Source of the DNA: Dyella sp. 2HG41-7
GTDB lineage: Bacteria; Pseudomonadota; Gammaproteobacteria; Xanthomonadales; Rhodanobacteraceae
DNA length: 64,000 nt
Direction of reading: 5' to 3'
Assembly (NCBI RefSeq): GCF_021390675.1
Contig: NZ_JAJEJV010000004.1
Location: forward strand, 868,001-932,000
The notes under the pieces are model-generated. The model saw nothing but the letters and a program-made list of their open reading frames with translations, made no database searches and was not told the DNA's origin. Below are positions 32,951 to 41,006 of this stretch, in pieces. Within the stretch, counting starts at the first letter, position 1. Every line of letters starts with the position of its first letter. The position numbers and the translations under genes were made by a program.

Positions 32951-33640
32951 ATGGGCAGCGCGGTGATCCGCTTCGATCAGGTCAGCAAGCGTTATGAAGG
33001 AGGGCATGAAGCCCTTTCGCAGCTTACGTTCGAAGTCGCCAAAGGCGAGATGGCGTTTGTGACCGGGCATTCGGGCGCTGGCAAGAGCACCTTGCTCAAA
33101 CTGCTGGCGTTGATCGAGCGACCCTCGCATGGCCATGTCACGCTCGATGGCCAAAGTCTCGCCAAGATCGGTCGCGCGGGCATACCCAAATTGCGCCGTA
33201 GCCTGGGCATGGTGTTTCAGGATCATCACTTGCTGATGGATCGCACCGTATTCGCCAATGTCGAGTTGCCGTTGGTGATCGGCGGCATCGCGCCGCTTGA
33301 GCGTGGTCGTCGCGTGCGCGCGGCGTTGGAAAAAGTCGGCCTGCTCGATTACGAACGGCAATTGCCGGCATCGCTTTCCACCGGCGAGCAGCAGCGCGTG
33401 GGTATCGCGCGCGCCATCGTCGCCAAACCGAGCGTGCTCATCGCCGACGAACCCACCGGCAACCTCGATCCGCAACTCGCATTCGAGATCATGGGACTGT
33501 TCGCCGAATTTCAGCAGGTGGGCACTACCGTGCTGGTGGCGACGCACGATCTGCCCTTGATCAAACGCATGAGGAAGCGCGTGGTCGTGCTCGATCACGG
33601 TCGCCTCGTGGCGGACGTTTCCGCGGAGGAGGTGCTATGA
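32951..33640 (+). CDS. ftsE: Cell-division ATP-binding protein FtsE
   Basis: A protein of 229 residues. ABC ATPase with Walker A GHSGAGKST (39-47), Q-loop VFQDHHLLMDRTVFANV, Walker B VLIADEPTGNLD and H-loop VATHD. The signature is LSTGEQQR (141-148), with Thr where LSGGE is usual. FtsEX couples divisome signals to peptidoglycan amidase control. The start overlaps nothing; the stop overlaps ftsX by 4 nt. The N-terminal MGSAVIRFDQVSKRY is standard apart from a 4-residue extension. Confidence 0.94.
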   Translation: MGSAVIRFDQVSKRYEGGHEALSQLTFEVAKGEMAFVTGHSGAGKSTLLKLLALIERPSHGHVTLDGQSLAKIGRAGIPKLRRSLGMVFQDHHLLMDRTVFANVELPLVIGGIAPLERGRRVRAALEKVGLLDYERQLPASLSTGEQQRVGIARAIVAKPSVLIADEPTGNLDPQLAFEIMGLFAEFQQVGTTVLVATHDLPLIKRMRKRVVVLDHGRLVADVSAEEVL

Positions 33641-34614
33641 GCGCATCGACCGACACGCAAACGCCGACGCCCGCACCTGTGCGCAGCGAACGCAGTCATC
33701 GTCGCCCGGTTTCGAGCTGGCGCGAGCATCACAGCTGGAGCGCTGGCGCGAGTTTGCGTCGCCTCGCATCCAAGCCCGTCGGAACCTTGCTCACCGTCGC
33801 GGTGATGGGCCTGGCGTTGGCGTTGCCGCTGGCGTTCTACATGCTGCTTTCGAACGTGCAAACGCTCGGCGATGCGCTGGGACGCAATCAGGTCGTGAAT
33901 GTCTTCCTGAAGCCCGATCAAGTCGCTGGCAATGCGCAGATGCTGGCCAAGCAGATCCAGCAGCACGACGGCGTCGCCAGCGTGACGGTGAAATCGCCGC
34001 AACAGGGCATGGACGAATTGAGCAAGATGCAAGGATTTTCCGATGCGCTGCACGCGCTCGACGACAATCCGCTGCCGTTCGTGCTTCAGGTGCAACCGCA
34101 AGATGGCGTTTCCGCCGATGCGGTCAGTCATCTCGTGGACGATGTGCGCGGTATGCAAGGCGTCGATATGGTCCAGGACAGCGGCACCTGGCGTGAGCGA
34201 CTCGACGCTTTGCTCGGTGTGGGCAATCGCGCTGTGATGATTCTGGCGGCGCTGTTTGCGCTGGCGGTTCTGCTGGTGGTCGGTAATACGGTGCGCGTGG
34301 ATATCACCAGCCGCGCCGAGGAAATCGGCGTGCTGAAGCTGATAGGCGCCAGCCGCGCGTTCGTGCGGCGTCCCTATCTCTATGCGGGCGTCTGGTATGG
34401 CCTCTTCAGCGGCATCCTGGCGGTGGGGTTGGCGATCGCCATCGAATTTGCCTTGGCCGAACCGGTGGCTCGGCTTAGTCAGGTCTACGAAGGGAAATTC
34501 CAGGCTGGCGGCTTGCCGCCGTGGCTGTTGTTGAGCGTTCCCGTCGCTGCGGCTTTCCTGGGTTGGCTGGGCGCACGCTTGGTGAGCGCCTGGCAATTGC
34601 GTAAGGCGGCGTAA
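33637..34614 (+). CDS. ftsX: Cell-division membrane protein FtsX
   Basis: A protein of 325 residues. An N-terminal cytosolic tail of about 45 residues contains SWREHHSWS. Four membrane helices follow: the first at about 54-72, then a periplasmic domain of about 130 residues including LPFVLQVQPQDGVSAD, and three C-terminal helices. The first of these leads into VRVDITSRAEEIGVLKLIGASRAFVRRPYLYAG, the typical FtsX coupling segment. It is the membrane partner of FtsE and regulates septal amidases. The start overlaps the ftsE stop (ATGA at 33637-33640). Confidence 0.94.
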   Translation: MSASTDTQTPTPAPVRSERSHRRPVSSWREHHSWSAGASLRRLASKPVGTLLTVAVMGLALALPLAFYMLLSNVQTLGDALGRNQVVNVFLKPDQVAGNAQMLAKQIQQHDGVASVTVKSPQQGMDELSKMQGFSDALHALDDNPLPFVLQVQPQDGVSADAVSHLVDDVRGMQGVDMVQDSGTWRERLDALLGVGNRAVMILAALFALAVLLVVGNTVRVDITSRAEEIGVLKLIGASRAFVRRPYLYAGVWYGLFSGILAVGLAIAIEFALAEPVARLSQVYEGKFQAGGLPPWLLLSVPVAAAFLGWLGARLVSAWQLRKAA

Positions 34615-34822
34615 ATCGCCCGCCCACGTACGAATGTGGCGAGCGGTGAAGCCGTTCGCACAGCCCGTTGCCTGTCTGATTCACCATAGCGATGTGGTCG
34701 ATGGCCGGCTCGTAACGCGGCTGTTTCCTCACAACCGGATAGAATGTGTGCCTACAGGCGCAGGGGGCGCTTGACGACATGGAGCACGGAAGCCACGCAA
34801 AACCGGGACGGTGGGGTTTTTG

Positions 34823-35671
34823 ATGAGTTCAAGCATCAGCAGCCGTGATCTGAGCACCGCGCCGCGTGTGCTGGTGGTCGACGGTTCCAAGGTGGTTCGC
34901 CAGCTGATTTCGCGCGTCCTGCAAGCGGAATTGCCGCAGGCCGAGGTCGTCGGTTGCGGCTCGGGTGCGGAAGCGCATCGGCTGCTCGAAAACGGCGTGT
35001 TCGATTTCATTACGATCTCGCTGCGCCTACCCGATATGGACGGTTTGGAACTGGCGCGCTACGTGCGCGAATCCGCGCCGCAAGTTTATGTGCCGATCGT
35101 GGTGGTGTCCGGCGATGTGGATGATCGTCTGCATCGACGCGCCTTGGGCGAACACGTCACCGATTACTTCGACAAATCGCTCGGTTTCCAAGCGCTGGCG
35201 GAATTCATCCGCGGTTACGTGCGCCCGGAAAGCGCCGCCGAAGGCGTGGTGCTGTACGTGGAAGACAGCCGCGTGGTGGCGCTGGCGACGCGCCGCATGC
35301 TGGAAAAAATCGGGCTCACCGTGCGTCACGTGGTCAGCGTGGAAGACGCACTGGCCTTGCTCGAATCCGAGCGCGCGCAAGGTACGGTCGGCGCCGATCT
35401 GGTGCTCACCGACGTGAGCCTCAAAGGCGAATTGACCGGCGGCGATTTGCTGAAATTCATCCGTCTCGATTTTGGCTACGGCAAAGGCAAGTTACCGGTG
35501 CTGGTGATGACGGGCGACGAGAACCCGGACAATCAGGCCGCGTTGATTCGCGCGGGCGCCAACGATCTGGTCGAGAAGCCCGTCGAAGAAAAACTGCTGG
35601 TGACCAAGCTGCTGTTCCAGTTGCGCGTGGCGCAACATCTGCGCGGACGCGATAGCGCCGGAGCAATCTGA
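34823..35671 (+). CDS. Double receiver-domain response regulator with a degenerate first receiver
   Basis: A protein of 282 residues with two CheY-like receiver domains and no output domain. Receiver 1 (about 15-130) keeps D20, S97 and K118 but has Gly at the second acidic position and Ser66 where the phospho-acceptor Asp should be (FITISLRLPDMDG). Receiver 2 (about 141-270) is intact: E147/D148, D197 (VLTDVSL), T230 and K252 (VEKP). The product is therefore a pseudo-receiver fused to a working receiver, likely acting by protein contacts. ATG 34823 is preceded by GGTGGGG. It stands alone between ftsX and ung with no kinase nearby. Targets are unknown. Confidence 0.85.
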   Translation: MSSSISSRDLSTAPRVLVVDGSKVVRQLISRVLQAELPQAEVVGCGSGAEAHRLLENGVFDFITISLRLPDMDGLELARYVRESAPQVYVPIVVVSGDVDDRLHRRALGEHVTDYFDKSLGFQALAEFIRGYVRPESAAEGVVLYVEDSRVVALATRRMLEKIGLTVRHVVSVEDALALLESERAQGTVGADLVLTDVSLKGELTGGDLLKFIRLDFGYGKGKLPVLVMTGDENPDNQAALIRAGANDLVEKPVEEKLLVTKLLFQLRVAQHLRGRDSAGAI

Positions 35672-35743
35672 TCGCTCTCGGCTGACGTGTCGCGTCGGCG
35701 CGGTGCGCATACGCGTGGCCGACCTAATCGTTATGATTCGGGG

Positions 35744-36481
35744 ATGGCTAACGATCAACACGCAGCCCCGATGAGCGAAGAAGAACGCGTCAAACTCGAA
35801 CCGTCCTGGAAAAGTCGCATCGGCGATTATTTGCAGCGACCTGAGATGCGCACGCTGTCCGAATTTCTCCGCGCGGAGAAACGTGCCGGCAAAGTGATTT
35901 ATCCGCCGGGCCCCGAGATTTTCAACGCGTTTCAGCACACACCGTTCGAGGCCGTGCGCGTCGTGATACTCGGGCAGGATCCGTATCACGGCCCGGGGCA
36001 GGCGCATGGTTTGTGTTTCTCGGTGCGCCCCGGCGTGCCGGCGCCGCCGTCGCTGGTGAACATCTTCAAAGAGATCCAGCGCGATCTCGGTTATTCGCCG
36101 CCTGACCACGGCTGCCTGACACCCTGGGCGGATCGCGGGGTGCTGTTGCTCAACGCGGTGCTTACCGTGGAGCAGAGCCAGGCCGCCTCGCATCAGGGCA
36201 AAGGGTGGGAAGGTTTCACCGACGCGGCGATCGATGCGCTCAATCGGGAGCGCGAGGGGATCGTCTTCATGCTCTGGGGCTCTTACGCCCAGCGCAAAGG
36301 GCAGCTTATCGACACCTCCCGCCACGCGGTCCTGAAGTCGGTGCACCCCTCGCCCTTGTCGGCGCATCGAGGGTTTATCGGTTGTGGACACTTTTCGAGT
36401 GCCAACCGTTACCTGCAGGAACAGGGGCAACCGCCCATCGACTGGTCGCTGCCGCTTCGAGCTCAGCTGCGCGACGAATAA
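35744..36481 (+). CDS. ung: Uracil-DNA glycosylase, family 1
   Basis: A protein of 245 residues. The catalytic water-activating motif [14 protein letters not shown] (D79), uracil-recognition [19 protein letters not shown] and the DNA-intercalating loop [11 protein letters not shown] are all present. It removes uracil from DNA to start base-excision repair. The C-terminal SLPLRAQ is typical. ATG 35744 follows GGGG directly; ATG 35771 is a second possible start. It is monocistronic as far as visible, 72 bp after the double-receiver gene. Confidence 0.95.
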
Positions 36482-36584
36482 CTACAATTGTTTCGCTGTG
36501 ACCGACCCTTTGGTATGGCGGAGTCATCGGCACGGTGACTGCGGCCATCCGGAATGCACAGGAACTCTGGTGAGGAGCATGGCC

Positions 36585-37466
36585 ATGAATACATCCACCT
36601 CAATGAACAGCCTGCATTTTACGAATCCAGTCGCCCCCGAGCCGCATCCGGTAGGCGCGCATTGCGACATCCGGCAGTTTCGTCACACGGATTTCGGCGA
36701 AGCGATGAGTCCGCTGGTATTGGTTGATCACTTCGTTATGACGGGCCCTACCTTCGAAGTGCACCCCCATGCAGGCATGTCGGCCGTAACGGTGTTATTT
36801 GAGGACACGCAGGGCTGGATGAGCAGTCACGACAGCGTCCACAACGATCACAGGATCGAACCCGGTGGCCTGCATTGGACGCTGGCTGGTCGCGGCGTCG
36901 TGCATACCCAGCAACCCGAAGGCGATAACCCGCGCCTGAATGGCTTGCAGCTCTTTGTCAATCTATCTCAACGGTTAAAGCAGATGGCGCCCGCCACCAT
37001 GCTGCTGCGGCCGCAAGATGTCCCGGTTGTGGAGGTCGAGGGCCTCCGGCTGCGTGTGTTGGCGGGCTCCTTGGAGGGCAAGACAAGTCCGCTGATAACC
37101 CCAGAGCCGATTCTCATCCTGGACGGTTGGCTAGCCGATGGCGCGACAACGCGACTCCCCCTCCAAGCCGCCTGGAATGCTTGGGTTTATGCGCGTACCG
37201 GCAGTCTTTCCGTGCGTGATATCGCCGGTGAAGCGAAGGTCACCTTGGTCCCGGGTCAAGCAGTGGCCGTATCCGCCGATCAGCCCGGAGTGCTTGTATT
37301 GGGGTCGCCAGGCGGCGAGGTCCGTTTCGTGGTCATTGCTGGCCCGGCCATTCACGAACCGGTGGTTCAGTACGGTCCTTTCGTGATGACCAGCATTGAG
37401 GAGATGGAGCAGACCGTTCGAGATTTTCAGGCCGGAAAGTTCGGTACGGTGCGCCCGTTCACTTGA
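36585..37466 (+). CDS. Pirin-family bicupin protein with altered metal site
   Basis: A protein of 293 residues. Two cupin domains: the N-terminal pirin motif VHPHAGMSAVTVLFED, then GGLHWTLAGRGVVHTQQPEG, and a C-terminal pirin domain. Pirins normally bind iron through three His and one Glu; here the His-x-Glu position reads HTQ, so the Glu ligand appears replaced by Gln. Start: ATG 36585 is 7 nt from GAGGAG, whereas ATG 36579 is only 1 nt away. Function is uncertain: some pirins are quercetinases, others regulators. Codon use near the start looks less GC-biased than in neighbours, which could mean a recent arrival. It lies between ung and the rpoH control region. Confidence 0.78.
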   Translation: MNTSTSMNSLHFTNPVAPEPHPVGAHCDIRQFRHTDFGEAMSPLVLVDHFVMTGPTFEVHPHAGMSAVTVLFEDTQGWMSSHDSVHNDHRIEPGGLHWTLAGRGVVHTQQPEGDNPRLNGLQLFVNLSQRLKQMAPATMLLRPQDVPVVEVEGLRLRVLAGSLEGKTSPLITPEPILILDGWLADGATTRLPLQAAWNAWVYARTGSLSVRDIAGEAKVTLVPGQAVAVSADQPGVLVLGSPGGEVRFVVIAGPAIHEPVVQYGPFVMTSIEEMEQTVRDFQAGKFGTVRPFT

Positions 37467-37542: not shown

Positions 37543-37580
37543 TGGACATGCCCGGGGTATTCGTGTACTATTTAGTACAC
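37543..37580 (+). promoter_or_regulatory. Sigma-70-like rpoH promoter with an 18-bp perfect palindrome over the -10
   Basis: TGGACA (37543-37548), 17 bp, then TACTAT (37566-37571) make a credible housekeeping promoter 94 bp before rpoH. The -10 lies within GTGTACTATTTAGTACAC (37563-37580), a perfect palindrome with 8-bp arms and a TT centre, so a dimeric repressor bound here would block this promoter. The regulator is not identified. Confidence 0.65.
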
Positions 37581-37590
37581 AAAAGGCGCC

Positions 37591-37634
37591 GGAACTCATC
37601 GGTGCCTTTAGCACTCTAAGTATCCGAGTGCTAA
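37591..37634 (+). promoter_or_regulatory. Perfect CIRCE element (HrcA operator) with an overlapping sigma-E-like promoter
   Basis: TTAGCACTC (37608-37616), 9 bp, GAGTGCTAA (37626-37634) is an exact match to the CIRCE consensus, the operator of the heat-shock repressor HrcA. It ends 30 bp before the rpoH start. GGAACTC at 37591-37597 and TCTAA at 37615-37619 resemble an extracytoplasmic (RpoE) promoter with a slightly long spacer of about 17 bp. That -10 lies within CIRCE, so HrcA would exclude polymerase. Confidence 0.88.
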
Positions 37635-37664
37635 GCTCAACCCCATATCTCTGGAGGTTCCAAC

Positions 37665-38522
<858 letters not shown>

Positions 38523-39284: not shown

Positions 39285-40680
39285 TCCCACCCAAAATCTC
39301 GGAATTCACTGGCGCGCCACCACCTCGCGTTTGCTGCTTGCCTACGGCGTGTTCTTCGTCATCTGGGGCACGGTGCTGCTGGGGTCCATTTATTGGGAAG
39401 CGCGGCACTATCTGGAAAACCGCACGGATACGCAGCTCAAGCAGCAAATTGGTTATCTGCGCAGCTTGAACGAAGACCACATGCTGGTGGCGTTGAACGA
39501 CTACATGGTGCTCGAGCAAACCAACTACAACGCGTGGGGTTTGTTCGACGCGCACGGCAAGTGGCTGTACGGCGATGTGTTGCAGATACCCGAGGGCCTC
39601 AAGCCCGATATGGTCACCGTGCGCATGTCCACCGAAAATGTGGAGAGCGGCCCGTTCGCGCCGCAAACGCCCACACTTTCAGTGATCGCGACACGCCTCG
39701 ACAACGGCCAAATACTCGTGCTCGCGCATGCCACGCGCATTGCCGCGCGCGTGGGCGGCATCATTTTGCACGCGTTGTGGTGGGGGCTTTCCTTTACTTT
39801 GGTGCCCGGTTTGATCGGTGGTTTGATCCTCAATCGCGCACCGCGTCGGCGCATTCGGCAGATCGAATCGGCCACGCAATTGATCGTGCAGGGCGATTTG
39901 CATCGTCGCCTGCCGGTGGGCGAACGCGGCGACGAACTGGACCGACTCGCCGCCATCGTCAACAACATGCTCGACCAGATCGAGCGATTGATGGGCGAAG
40001 TGAAGGGCGTCTGCGACAACATCGCGCATGATCTGCGCACGCCGTTGACGCGTTTGCGTTCGCAGTTGTACCGCGTGCAACAGCAAATGAAGGAAGACGA
40101 TCCGCACGCCGCGTTGATCGAACAATGCGTCAGCGACATCGATGAAGTGCTCGCACGCTTCCGCGCGCTGCTGCGCATTTCGGAGTTGGAAGATCGGCGC
40201 CGGCGCGAAGGCTTCGTCGCAGTTGATCTGGGCCAGACGCTGCAGCACGTGCACGAACTGTATGCGCCACTGGCAGAGGACCAGCAACTGCAATTCGCGT
40301 TGCAGATCGATCCAGATCTGATCGTGCAGGCGGACCCCGATCTGCTGTTCGAGGCGCTGGGAAATCTGGTCAGCAACGCGATCAAATTCACGCCCTCGGG
40401 CGGTCGCGTGTCGCTGAGCGCGGTGCGCGTCGATGCAGAGTCCGCGCTTCTGGAAGTGATCGACAGCGGTCCTGGCATCCCCGAAGCGCAGCGGCAGGTC
40501 ATCTGGCAGCGGTTCTATCGTGGTGATGCGGGGCGCGATGTGCCGGGTCACGGGCTGGGGCTTAGCATCGTCGCGGCCATCGCCAAGCTGCACGACTTCG
40601 GGTTGTCCATCGGGGATGGCAATGAGGGCACATCGATCAGTATGCAATGCCGTCTGCAGTCTTCGCATTCGACCGCTTAG
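39277..40680 (+). CDS. Sensor histidine kinase of the OmpR/EnvZ type
   Basis: A protein of 467 residues. Membrane helices at about 18-40 and 160-185 flank a periplasmic domain of about 115 residues (NYNAWGLFDAHGKWLYGD). The HAMP domain has GDLHRRLPVGERGDELDRLAAIVNNML, and the phospho-acceptor is H251 in IAHDLRTPLTRLRSQL. N box EALGNLVSNAIKFTPSGG and G boxes DSGPGIP and GHGLGLSIVAAIAKLH follow. The start is TTG 39277, overlapping the regulator stop by 8 nt; there is no ATG before the first helix. The signal sensed is unknown. Confidence 0.9.
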   Translation: MANPTQNLGIHWRATTSRLLLAYGVFFVIWGTVLLGSIYWEARHYLENRTDTQLKQQIGYLRSLNEDHMLVALNDYMVLEQTNYNAWGLFDAHGKWLYGDVLQIPEGLKPDMVTVRMSTENVESGPFAPQTPTLSVIATRLDNGQILVLAHATRIAARVGGIILHALWWGLSFTLVPGLIGGLILNRAPRRRIRQIESATQLIVQGDLHRRLPVGERGDELDRLAAIVNNMLDQIERLMGEVKGVCDNIAHDLRTPLTRLRSQLYRVQQQMKEDDPHAALIEQCVSDIDEVLARFRALLRISELEDRRRREGFVAVDLGQTLQHVHELYAPLAEDQQLQFALQIDPDLIVQADPDLLFEALGNLVSNAIKFTPSGGRVSLSAVRVDAESALLEVIDSGPGIPEAQRQVIWQRFYRGDAGRDVPGHGLGLSIVAAIAKLHDFGLSIGDGNEGTSISMQCRLQSSHSTA

Positions 40681-40765
40681 ATCGCCTATCGCACACCGAT
40701 ACAGGGCCTGAAGTCTCCCGACTTTCCACGCGCACGCCCGGTCGGGATTTTTCAAGTCGCCTCAG

Positions 40766-40845
40766 CGTCATCCCAGCGAAAGCTGGGACCCAGTGCCTTT
40801 GGCCCTTTGTTAAGTCGCTGGATCCCAGCTTTCGCTGGGATGACG
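40766..40845. repeat. REP-like inverted pair between the two-component genes and the RND operon
   Basis: The 28 bp at 40766-40793 (starting CGTCATCCCAGCGAAAGCTG) match the reverse complement of 40818-40845 at 27 of 28 positions, with a 24-nt spacer. Each half is itself partly palindromic (CCCAGC...GCTGGG), the pattern of extragenic REP/BIME units, which in this order are often dispersed by a RAYT transposase. The rest of the gap 40681-41006 holds the RND leader, with no clear promoter boxes. It could also slow transcription from the kinase gene into the RND operon. Confidence 0.85.
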
Positions 40846-41006
40846 AGCAAAAAAACGGAATCGTCGAATTCCAATCATGCCGATTAATGACCGTCGGTCG
40901 GTGCTCGGCCCTTTTATGAAACAATCTTCATGCCTGCGAAAGGCGCCACGGCAGGCGTTTTTCGATAATGCAGCCTCCGTTAGCCCGTGTCGCTGGAAGC
41001 CGCTGC

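Follow-up and report, generated by a model that had tools for sequence, protein, structure and literature searches.

The window analysed here, a 64,000 nt stretch of the Dyella sp. 2HG41-7 genome, includes a forward-strand gene for the heat-shock sigma factor RpoH (sigma-32) at 37665-38522. Its 285 aa product scores above the cut-offs of both NF005143 and the equivalog model TIGR02392 (412.7 bits, cut-off 323.1), and is 86% identical to the RpoH of Pinirhizobacter soli (Rhodanobacteraceae) and 91% identical to that of a MAG. A ribosome-binding site, GGAGG, can be read on the same strand at 37653-37657. The region before rpoH, 32951-37466, encodes an ABC-ATPase in the position of ftsE, FtsX, a double receiver-domain protein, a uracil-DNA glycosylase and a pirin; three genes lie between ftsX and rpoH here, whereas in E. 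coli rpoH comes immediately after ftsX.

Between these genes and rpoH, on the forward strand at 37608-37634, is a CIRCE element, the predicted operator of the repressor HrcA. It reads TTAGCACTC-TAAGTATCC-GAGTGCTAA, the two arms (37608-37616 and 37626-37634) forming a perfect 9 bp inverted repeat around a 9 nt spacer, and has no mismatches to the consensus TTAGCACTC-N9-GAGTGCTAA. Thirty bases separate it from the rpoH start at 37665. It is the sole match in the 64,000 nt window at up to three mismatches, and a chance origin was discarded, as 100 dinucleotide shuffles yielded no match. The presence of an exact CIRCE before rpoH, first noticed in a sequence-only reading of this DNA, is therefore confirmed, both by the perfect match and by the RpoH model match downstream.

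Across the whole genome (G000; 4.26 Mb in four contigs), two CIRCE-like sites were found at up to three mismatches: the rpoH site, with none, and a site at groES-groEL, with one. The same scan found no CIRCE at the genome's own hrcA-grpE operon. If HrcA acts at rpoH, this gene would consequently be one of just two CIRCE targets in the genome. The sequence-only reading had asked for a search for hrcA, the absence of which would have counted against its proposal; profile searches identified the gene (PF01628, E = 3e-67; TIGR00331, 321 bits against a cut-off of 197.2), which removes that objection. A grpE-like ORF directly follows hrcA. The genome also encodes RpoE (TIGR02939, 317.3 bits, cut-off 236.15), with TGAACTT-N16-TCAGA upstream of its gene, and beside the CIRCE of groESL there is a sigma-32-like promoter upstream of these genes, CTTGAAA-N12-CCCCTAT.

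Promoter motifs overlapping CIRCE

Sigma-E promoters are characterised by a spacing of 15 or 16 nt between GGAACTT and TCNNA. In the window, a similar arrangement can be read as GGAACTC-N17-TCTAA, with the -35, ending in C, at 37591-37597 and the -10 at 37615-37619, both on the forward strand; a transcript initiated there would be predicted to start near 37625-37627. The accessible parts of two papers give GGAACTT and TCAAA as sigma-E motifs (PMC4890791, PMC8103513). The sequence-only reading had placed the -10 within the left arm of CIRCE, which is correct for the TC of TCTAA, the end of that arm, but not for TAA, which comprises the first three bases of the spacer.

The register of these motifs relative to the operator is highly conserved among rpoH sites of the order. 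GAAC starts at -17 to -13 relative to CIRCE in 63 of 65 distinct sites, against two to seven in control windows shifted upstream, and TCNNA follows the -35 after 15-17 nt in 56 of the 65 and after exactly 16 nt in 48, the 17 nt spacer of the window being one above this commonest value. In family f12, both elements appear displaced by around 2 nt with respect to CIRCE, their mutual spacing being kept. Across the class, the sigma-E part is less widespread, GAAC being at register in 41 of 68 rpoH CIRCE sites. CIRCE sites at groES differ: GAAC is found at register in one of 18, at a locus (L292) that was itself picked by a pattern scan, and the third spacer base is A in none of the 18, compared with 169 of 216 rpoH sites in a set that includes pattern-selected loci. 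These patterns support the prediction that a sigma-E promoter overlaps CIRCE in the rpoH leader. The promoter motif alone is uninformative in this genome, as a strict search for GGAACT-N17-TCNRA gave fewer matches (four) than its reversed control (11). A genome-wide list of sigma-E promoters based on this pattern was abandoned, because it misses both the genome's own rpoH (N17 after GGAACTC) and its own rpoE (TGAACTT).

The right arm of CIRCE contributes to a second putative core promoter, an extended -10 of the sigma-70 type. In the window this is TGCTAAGCT (TGC-TAAGCT; 37629-37637, forward strand), made up of right-arm bases followed by GCT, and it would be predicted to direct initiation near 37644. 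TAAGCT would be weak as a -10 except for the extended TG. The general form, TGCTAAnnT, combines right-arm bases with a conserved T, and this T, the third base past the arm, is present at 59 of 65 rpoH sites in the order and 63 of 68 in the class, against seven of 18 groES sites; conservation of the predicted element at rpoH CIRCE sites is thus borne out. Similar motifs precede rpoH in genomes that lack hrcA: TGnTAnnnT was found in 48 of 75 such genomes in the order (10.8 expected from shuffles) and 20 of 30 in the class (4.4 expected), and the narrower TGCTAAnnT in eight of 75 (0.6 expected) and nine of 30 (0.3 expected), respectively. For instance, three genomes without hrcA from families that otherwise possess it (G013, G011 and G021) retain GGAACTT and TGCTAA[AG]AT around a broken palindrome.

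Further upstream lies a sigma-70-like promoter, TGGACA-N17-TACTAT (37543-37571, forward strand; one found, 0.1 expected), and most members of the window's family show TGGAC or TTGAC with TAC[TCG]AT after it. Together with the conserved extended -10 at CIRCE, this suggests that the influence of HrcA probably reaches beyond sigma-E transcription, and that rpoH need not rely on sigma-E alone. Similarly, in Xanthomonas campestris neither rpoH nor rpoD could be deleted, whereas the 13 other sigma factor genes, including rpoE1, could (PMC6085468, accessible part), which would imply sigma-E-independent transcription of rpoH in that species. The proposal that HrcA controls rpoH at a sigma-E promoter is hence strongly supported as a prediction in so far as the site accompanies hrcA and keeps a fixed register with the sigma-E motifs, but was too narrow in considering sigma-E alone.

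These observations could be extended to an arrangement in which the sigma-E-like motif contributes little or nothing in this species, and HrcA controls rpoH mainly through the extended -10 together with the promoter further upstream. Across the class, the T of the extended -10 is steadier than GAAC, the sigma-E spacer of this genome is 17 nt long, and the X. campestris deletions point in the same direction. Set against these are the near-invariant register of GAAC within the order and the retention of the sigma-E core in G013 despite its lack of hrcA, and we regard a subordinate or silent sigma-E motif as rather doubtful. Control by HrcA of both types of core promoter remains the preferred reading.

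Two further inverted repeats are present in the leader. One (37582-37609) is a potential hairpin, AAAGGCGCCG / CGGTGCCTTT, that encloses the sigma-E -35; its fold z is -5.4 in this genome, and averages -2.3 in family f1 and -0.7 outside it. The stems differ yet stay complementary in several f1 members. A pattern search of the leader for terminators found none here, leaving a terminator reading of this hairpin unsupported. The other, a near-perfect inverted repeat at 37560-37583, TTCGTGTACTA/TAGTACACAAA, overlaps the -10 of the upstream sigma-70-like promoter, and TGTAC[TCG]AT is visible at this position in most f1 members. Its 16-base palindromic core (37564-37579) occurs once in the genome, so no regulon can be derived from it.

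Distribution of the site relative to hrcA

The relationship between the operator and its putative repressor was surveyed in two samples. That of the order comprised 151 genomes, of which six without an RpoH match at E ≤ 1e-50 were left out, one of them (G033) having hrcA; that of the class comprised 104 genomes spread across families, of which 11 were left out. G000 and G001 belong to both samples, and were counted in the class totals but removed from the class motif profiles. The window searched around rpoH was shortened by contig ends in three genomes (G124, G102 and G030). Of the 70 order genomes with hrcA, 68 have a CIRCE no more than 300 nt from rpoH, as against none of the 75 that lack the gene; these figures are uncorrected for shared ancestry, and no reliance is placed on Fisher values computed from them or from the class counts. 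At up to five mismatches, 66 of 145 loci have a site with a 9 nt spacer, and 68 do if spacers of 7-11 nt are allowed. Both exceptions among genomes with hrcA are atypical: one has a degenerate remnant of the site, and the other a divergent RpoH. Conversely, five genomes that lack hrcA although they belong to families generally bearing the site (G013, G011, G021, G026 and G062) have no site either.

Class-wide, CIRCE precedes rpoH in 59 of 63 genomes with hrcA and 10 of 30 without, again uncorrected for shared ancestry; for one genome with two rpoH copies (G567), the copy lacking a site was counted, the other having a site with one mismatch. Six of the 10 genomes with a site but no hrcA are less than 90% complete. 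G608 and G610, near-complete and without hrcA, have sites with three and about four mismatches, respectively. G626 and G551 contradict a strict rule, being near-complete genomes in which no hrcA was detected but a CIRCE with one mismatch precedes rpoH; candidate readings are that hrcA was missed or is divergent, or that it was recently lost. The co-occurrence is therefore strict in the order and weaker in the class.

This distribution bears on the suggestion that the site is a relic on which HrcA no longer acts in this species. Overlapping promoters that do not depend on HrcA would preserve part of the bases regardless, and some class genomes retain sites without hrcA; nevertheless, the site here matches the consensus perfectly in a genome with an intact hrcA, and the absence of the palindrome from all 75 order genomes without hrcA indicates that it decays once HrcA is lost, making a defunct operator highly improbable. 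Equally improbable is that the inverted repeat functions as an RNA hairpin affecting the stability or translation of rpoH mRNA, rather than as a DNA operator. A transcript from the upstream promoter at 37543-37571 would carry both arms, and the fold around the -35 provides a second hairpin in the window's family, but CIRCE tracks hrcA across the order and no Rfam match was found at E ≤ 1. Moreover, transcripts from the sigma-E and extended -10 promoters would begin within the repeat or downstream of it, and would thus lack the left arm, making such a role unlikely for them. A DNA operator recognised by HrcA accordingly remains the favoured explanation of the repeat.

A scan of a genome collection with the composite pattern GGAAC-N11-TTAGCASTC-N9-GASTGCTAA, which names no part of rpoH, found at least 118 stretches. 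Among the matches listed, 109 of 118 are followed on the same strand by an RpoH match starting within 300 nt. Two of the nine remaining listed matches (L232 and L243) precede what looks like the N-terminus of RpoH, truncated where the stretch ends. L254, from Geobacter, has rpoH at the opposite flank of the site, as L194 and L207 have groES, and the composite lies upstream of groES in L292 and of hrcA in L275; L231 and L182 make up the rest of the nine. Matches listed include representatives of Alcanivorax, Thioalkalivibrio, Stenotrophomonas, Luteimonas, Lysobacter, Azoarcus, Deefgea, Ferrovum, Thiobacillus and Limnobacter. With fixed spacing and at most one mismatch, the composite was found in 13 of 398 genomes of the phylum, the present genome not being among the 13; it was consequently judged too strict for a census, and windows anchored on rpoH were used instead.

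The arms themselves vary in a manner that is partly coordinated. Paired changes from C/G to G/C were seen 12 times among the 118 matches listed, against 2.6 expected. Among 61 distinct sites of the order, paired G/C changes numbered 12 against 7.8 expected, a weak excess that could be explained by shared ancestry, and one-sided changes are also common there (13 C/C and five G/G). In family f2, most rpoH sites are TTAGCAGTC-N9-GACTGCTAA, while at groES these genomes mostly have yTGGCACTC or yTGGCAGTC paired with GAGTGCTAA; the G before TC in the f2 rpoH site resembles the sigma-E -10 context of E. coli P3 and of the present genome's own rpoE. A composite sigma-E/CIRCE motif is also found at G427:C8:47853-47895, in a genome whose detected rpoH, on contig C4, has no such site.

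A proposed circuit and its relation to known systems

The evidence makes it very likely that the CIRCE at 37608-37634 functions as an HrcA operator superimposed on sigma-E and sigma-70-type core promoters of rpoH. From sequence comparisons we infer binding, repression, sigma-E dependence, the start sites and feedback through GroEL. In other bacteria, GroEL supports the activity of HrcA, which is lost on heating or when GroEL is occupied. By this model, HrcA bound to CIRCE would cover both the -10 and start region of the sigma-E promoter and the extended -10, blocking RNA polymerase from each, and its inactivation, by heat or through occupation of GroEL by misfolded protein, would open both. 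Envelope stress would add to rpoH output through sigma-E activity, and the resulting RpoH would raise expression of groESL and other chaperones. As groESL carries both a CIRCE and a sigma-32-like promoter, HrcA would act on these genes twice in the same direction, directly through CIRCE and indirectly through rpoH.

HrcA and CIRCE control the groESL and hrcA-grpE-dnaK operons in systems of the Bacillus type. Sites at both operons are recorded in Table 8 of PMC545781, in the part of that paper accessible to us. The operator sequence and repressor family are common to such systems and the one proposed here, but in the latter the target is an activating sigma factor gene, sigma-E and extended -10 elements coincide in part with the operator, and hrcA-grpE itself lacks CIRCE. 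The same table predicts a CIRCE at rpoH in Geobacter sulfurreducens, likewise an HrcA operator before this gene, although this is a single deltaproteobacterial prediction. In the Geobacter MAG L254, CIRCE is 44 nt from rpoH, after a TATATT-like hexamer and CTTGAAA, and unlike in the gamma- and betaproteobacterial composite does not overlap a sigma-E -10. The E. coli rpoH promoter P3 is a sigma-E promoter (PMC8103513, accessible part). The K-12 sequence shares the sigma-E element, as TGAACTT-N16-TCTGA, but no CIRCE can be read there, and a profile search of the E. coli control genome with the HrcA model gave no match.

That HrcA joins rpoH to a circuit separate from it in E. coli, as originally suggested, thus seems likely, but would not be peculiar to this genome: the wiring looks to be widespread in the sampled hrcA-bearing Gamma- and Betaproteobacteria, with the simpler E. 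coli form the exception. On balance, we favour descent from one ancestral 45 bp rpoH element in these classes with bases common to three readers: HrcA would recognise the whole palindrome, sigma-E a -10 made of the left-arm TC and the spacer, and sigma-70 an extended -10 made of the right-arm TGCTAA and the T. HrcA would stand above RpoH where it has been kept, and the E. coli promoter would be a remnant left after its loss.

In the open full-text literature, as far as accessible, one report of CIRCE at rpoH was found, the G. sulfurreducens prediction; most subscription papers lay outside this scope. The words HrcA and rpoH are absent from the main text of a comparative-regulon paper, PMC5343134, according to a term search. 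No priority is claimed, given this scope and an earlier study that may already have listed rpoH as an HrcA target in beta- and gammaproteobacterial genomes, the survey of these heat-shock regulons in the two classes reportedly made by Permina and Gelfand in 2003. Both an HrcA operator and a sigma-E promoter at rpoH are of known kinds, and the interest lies in the breadth of their combination and in the three-way overlap. Heat-shock control is taught as either a repressor (HrcA) or a sigma factor (RpoH); if the present reading is true, HrcA governs the sigma factor itself in most Gamma- and Betaproteobacteria with both. Genomes with and without hrcA would then form a natural series showing how a promoter can outlast the decay of an operator embedded in it, and ideas on where the E. 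coli rpoH promoter came from could be put to the test.

A minor feature of the window is an ORF at 40647-40919, the product of which includes VIPAKAGTQ...FRWDDE, which we take to be a mark of dispersed repeat elements.
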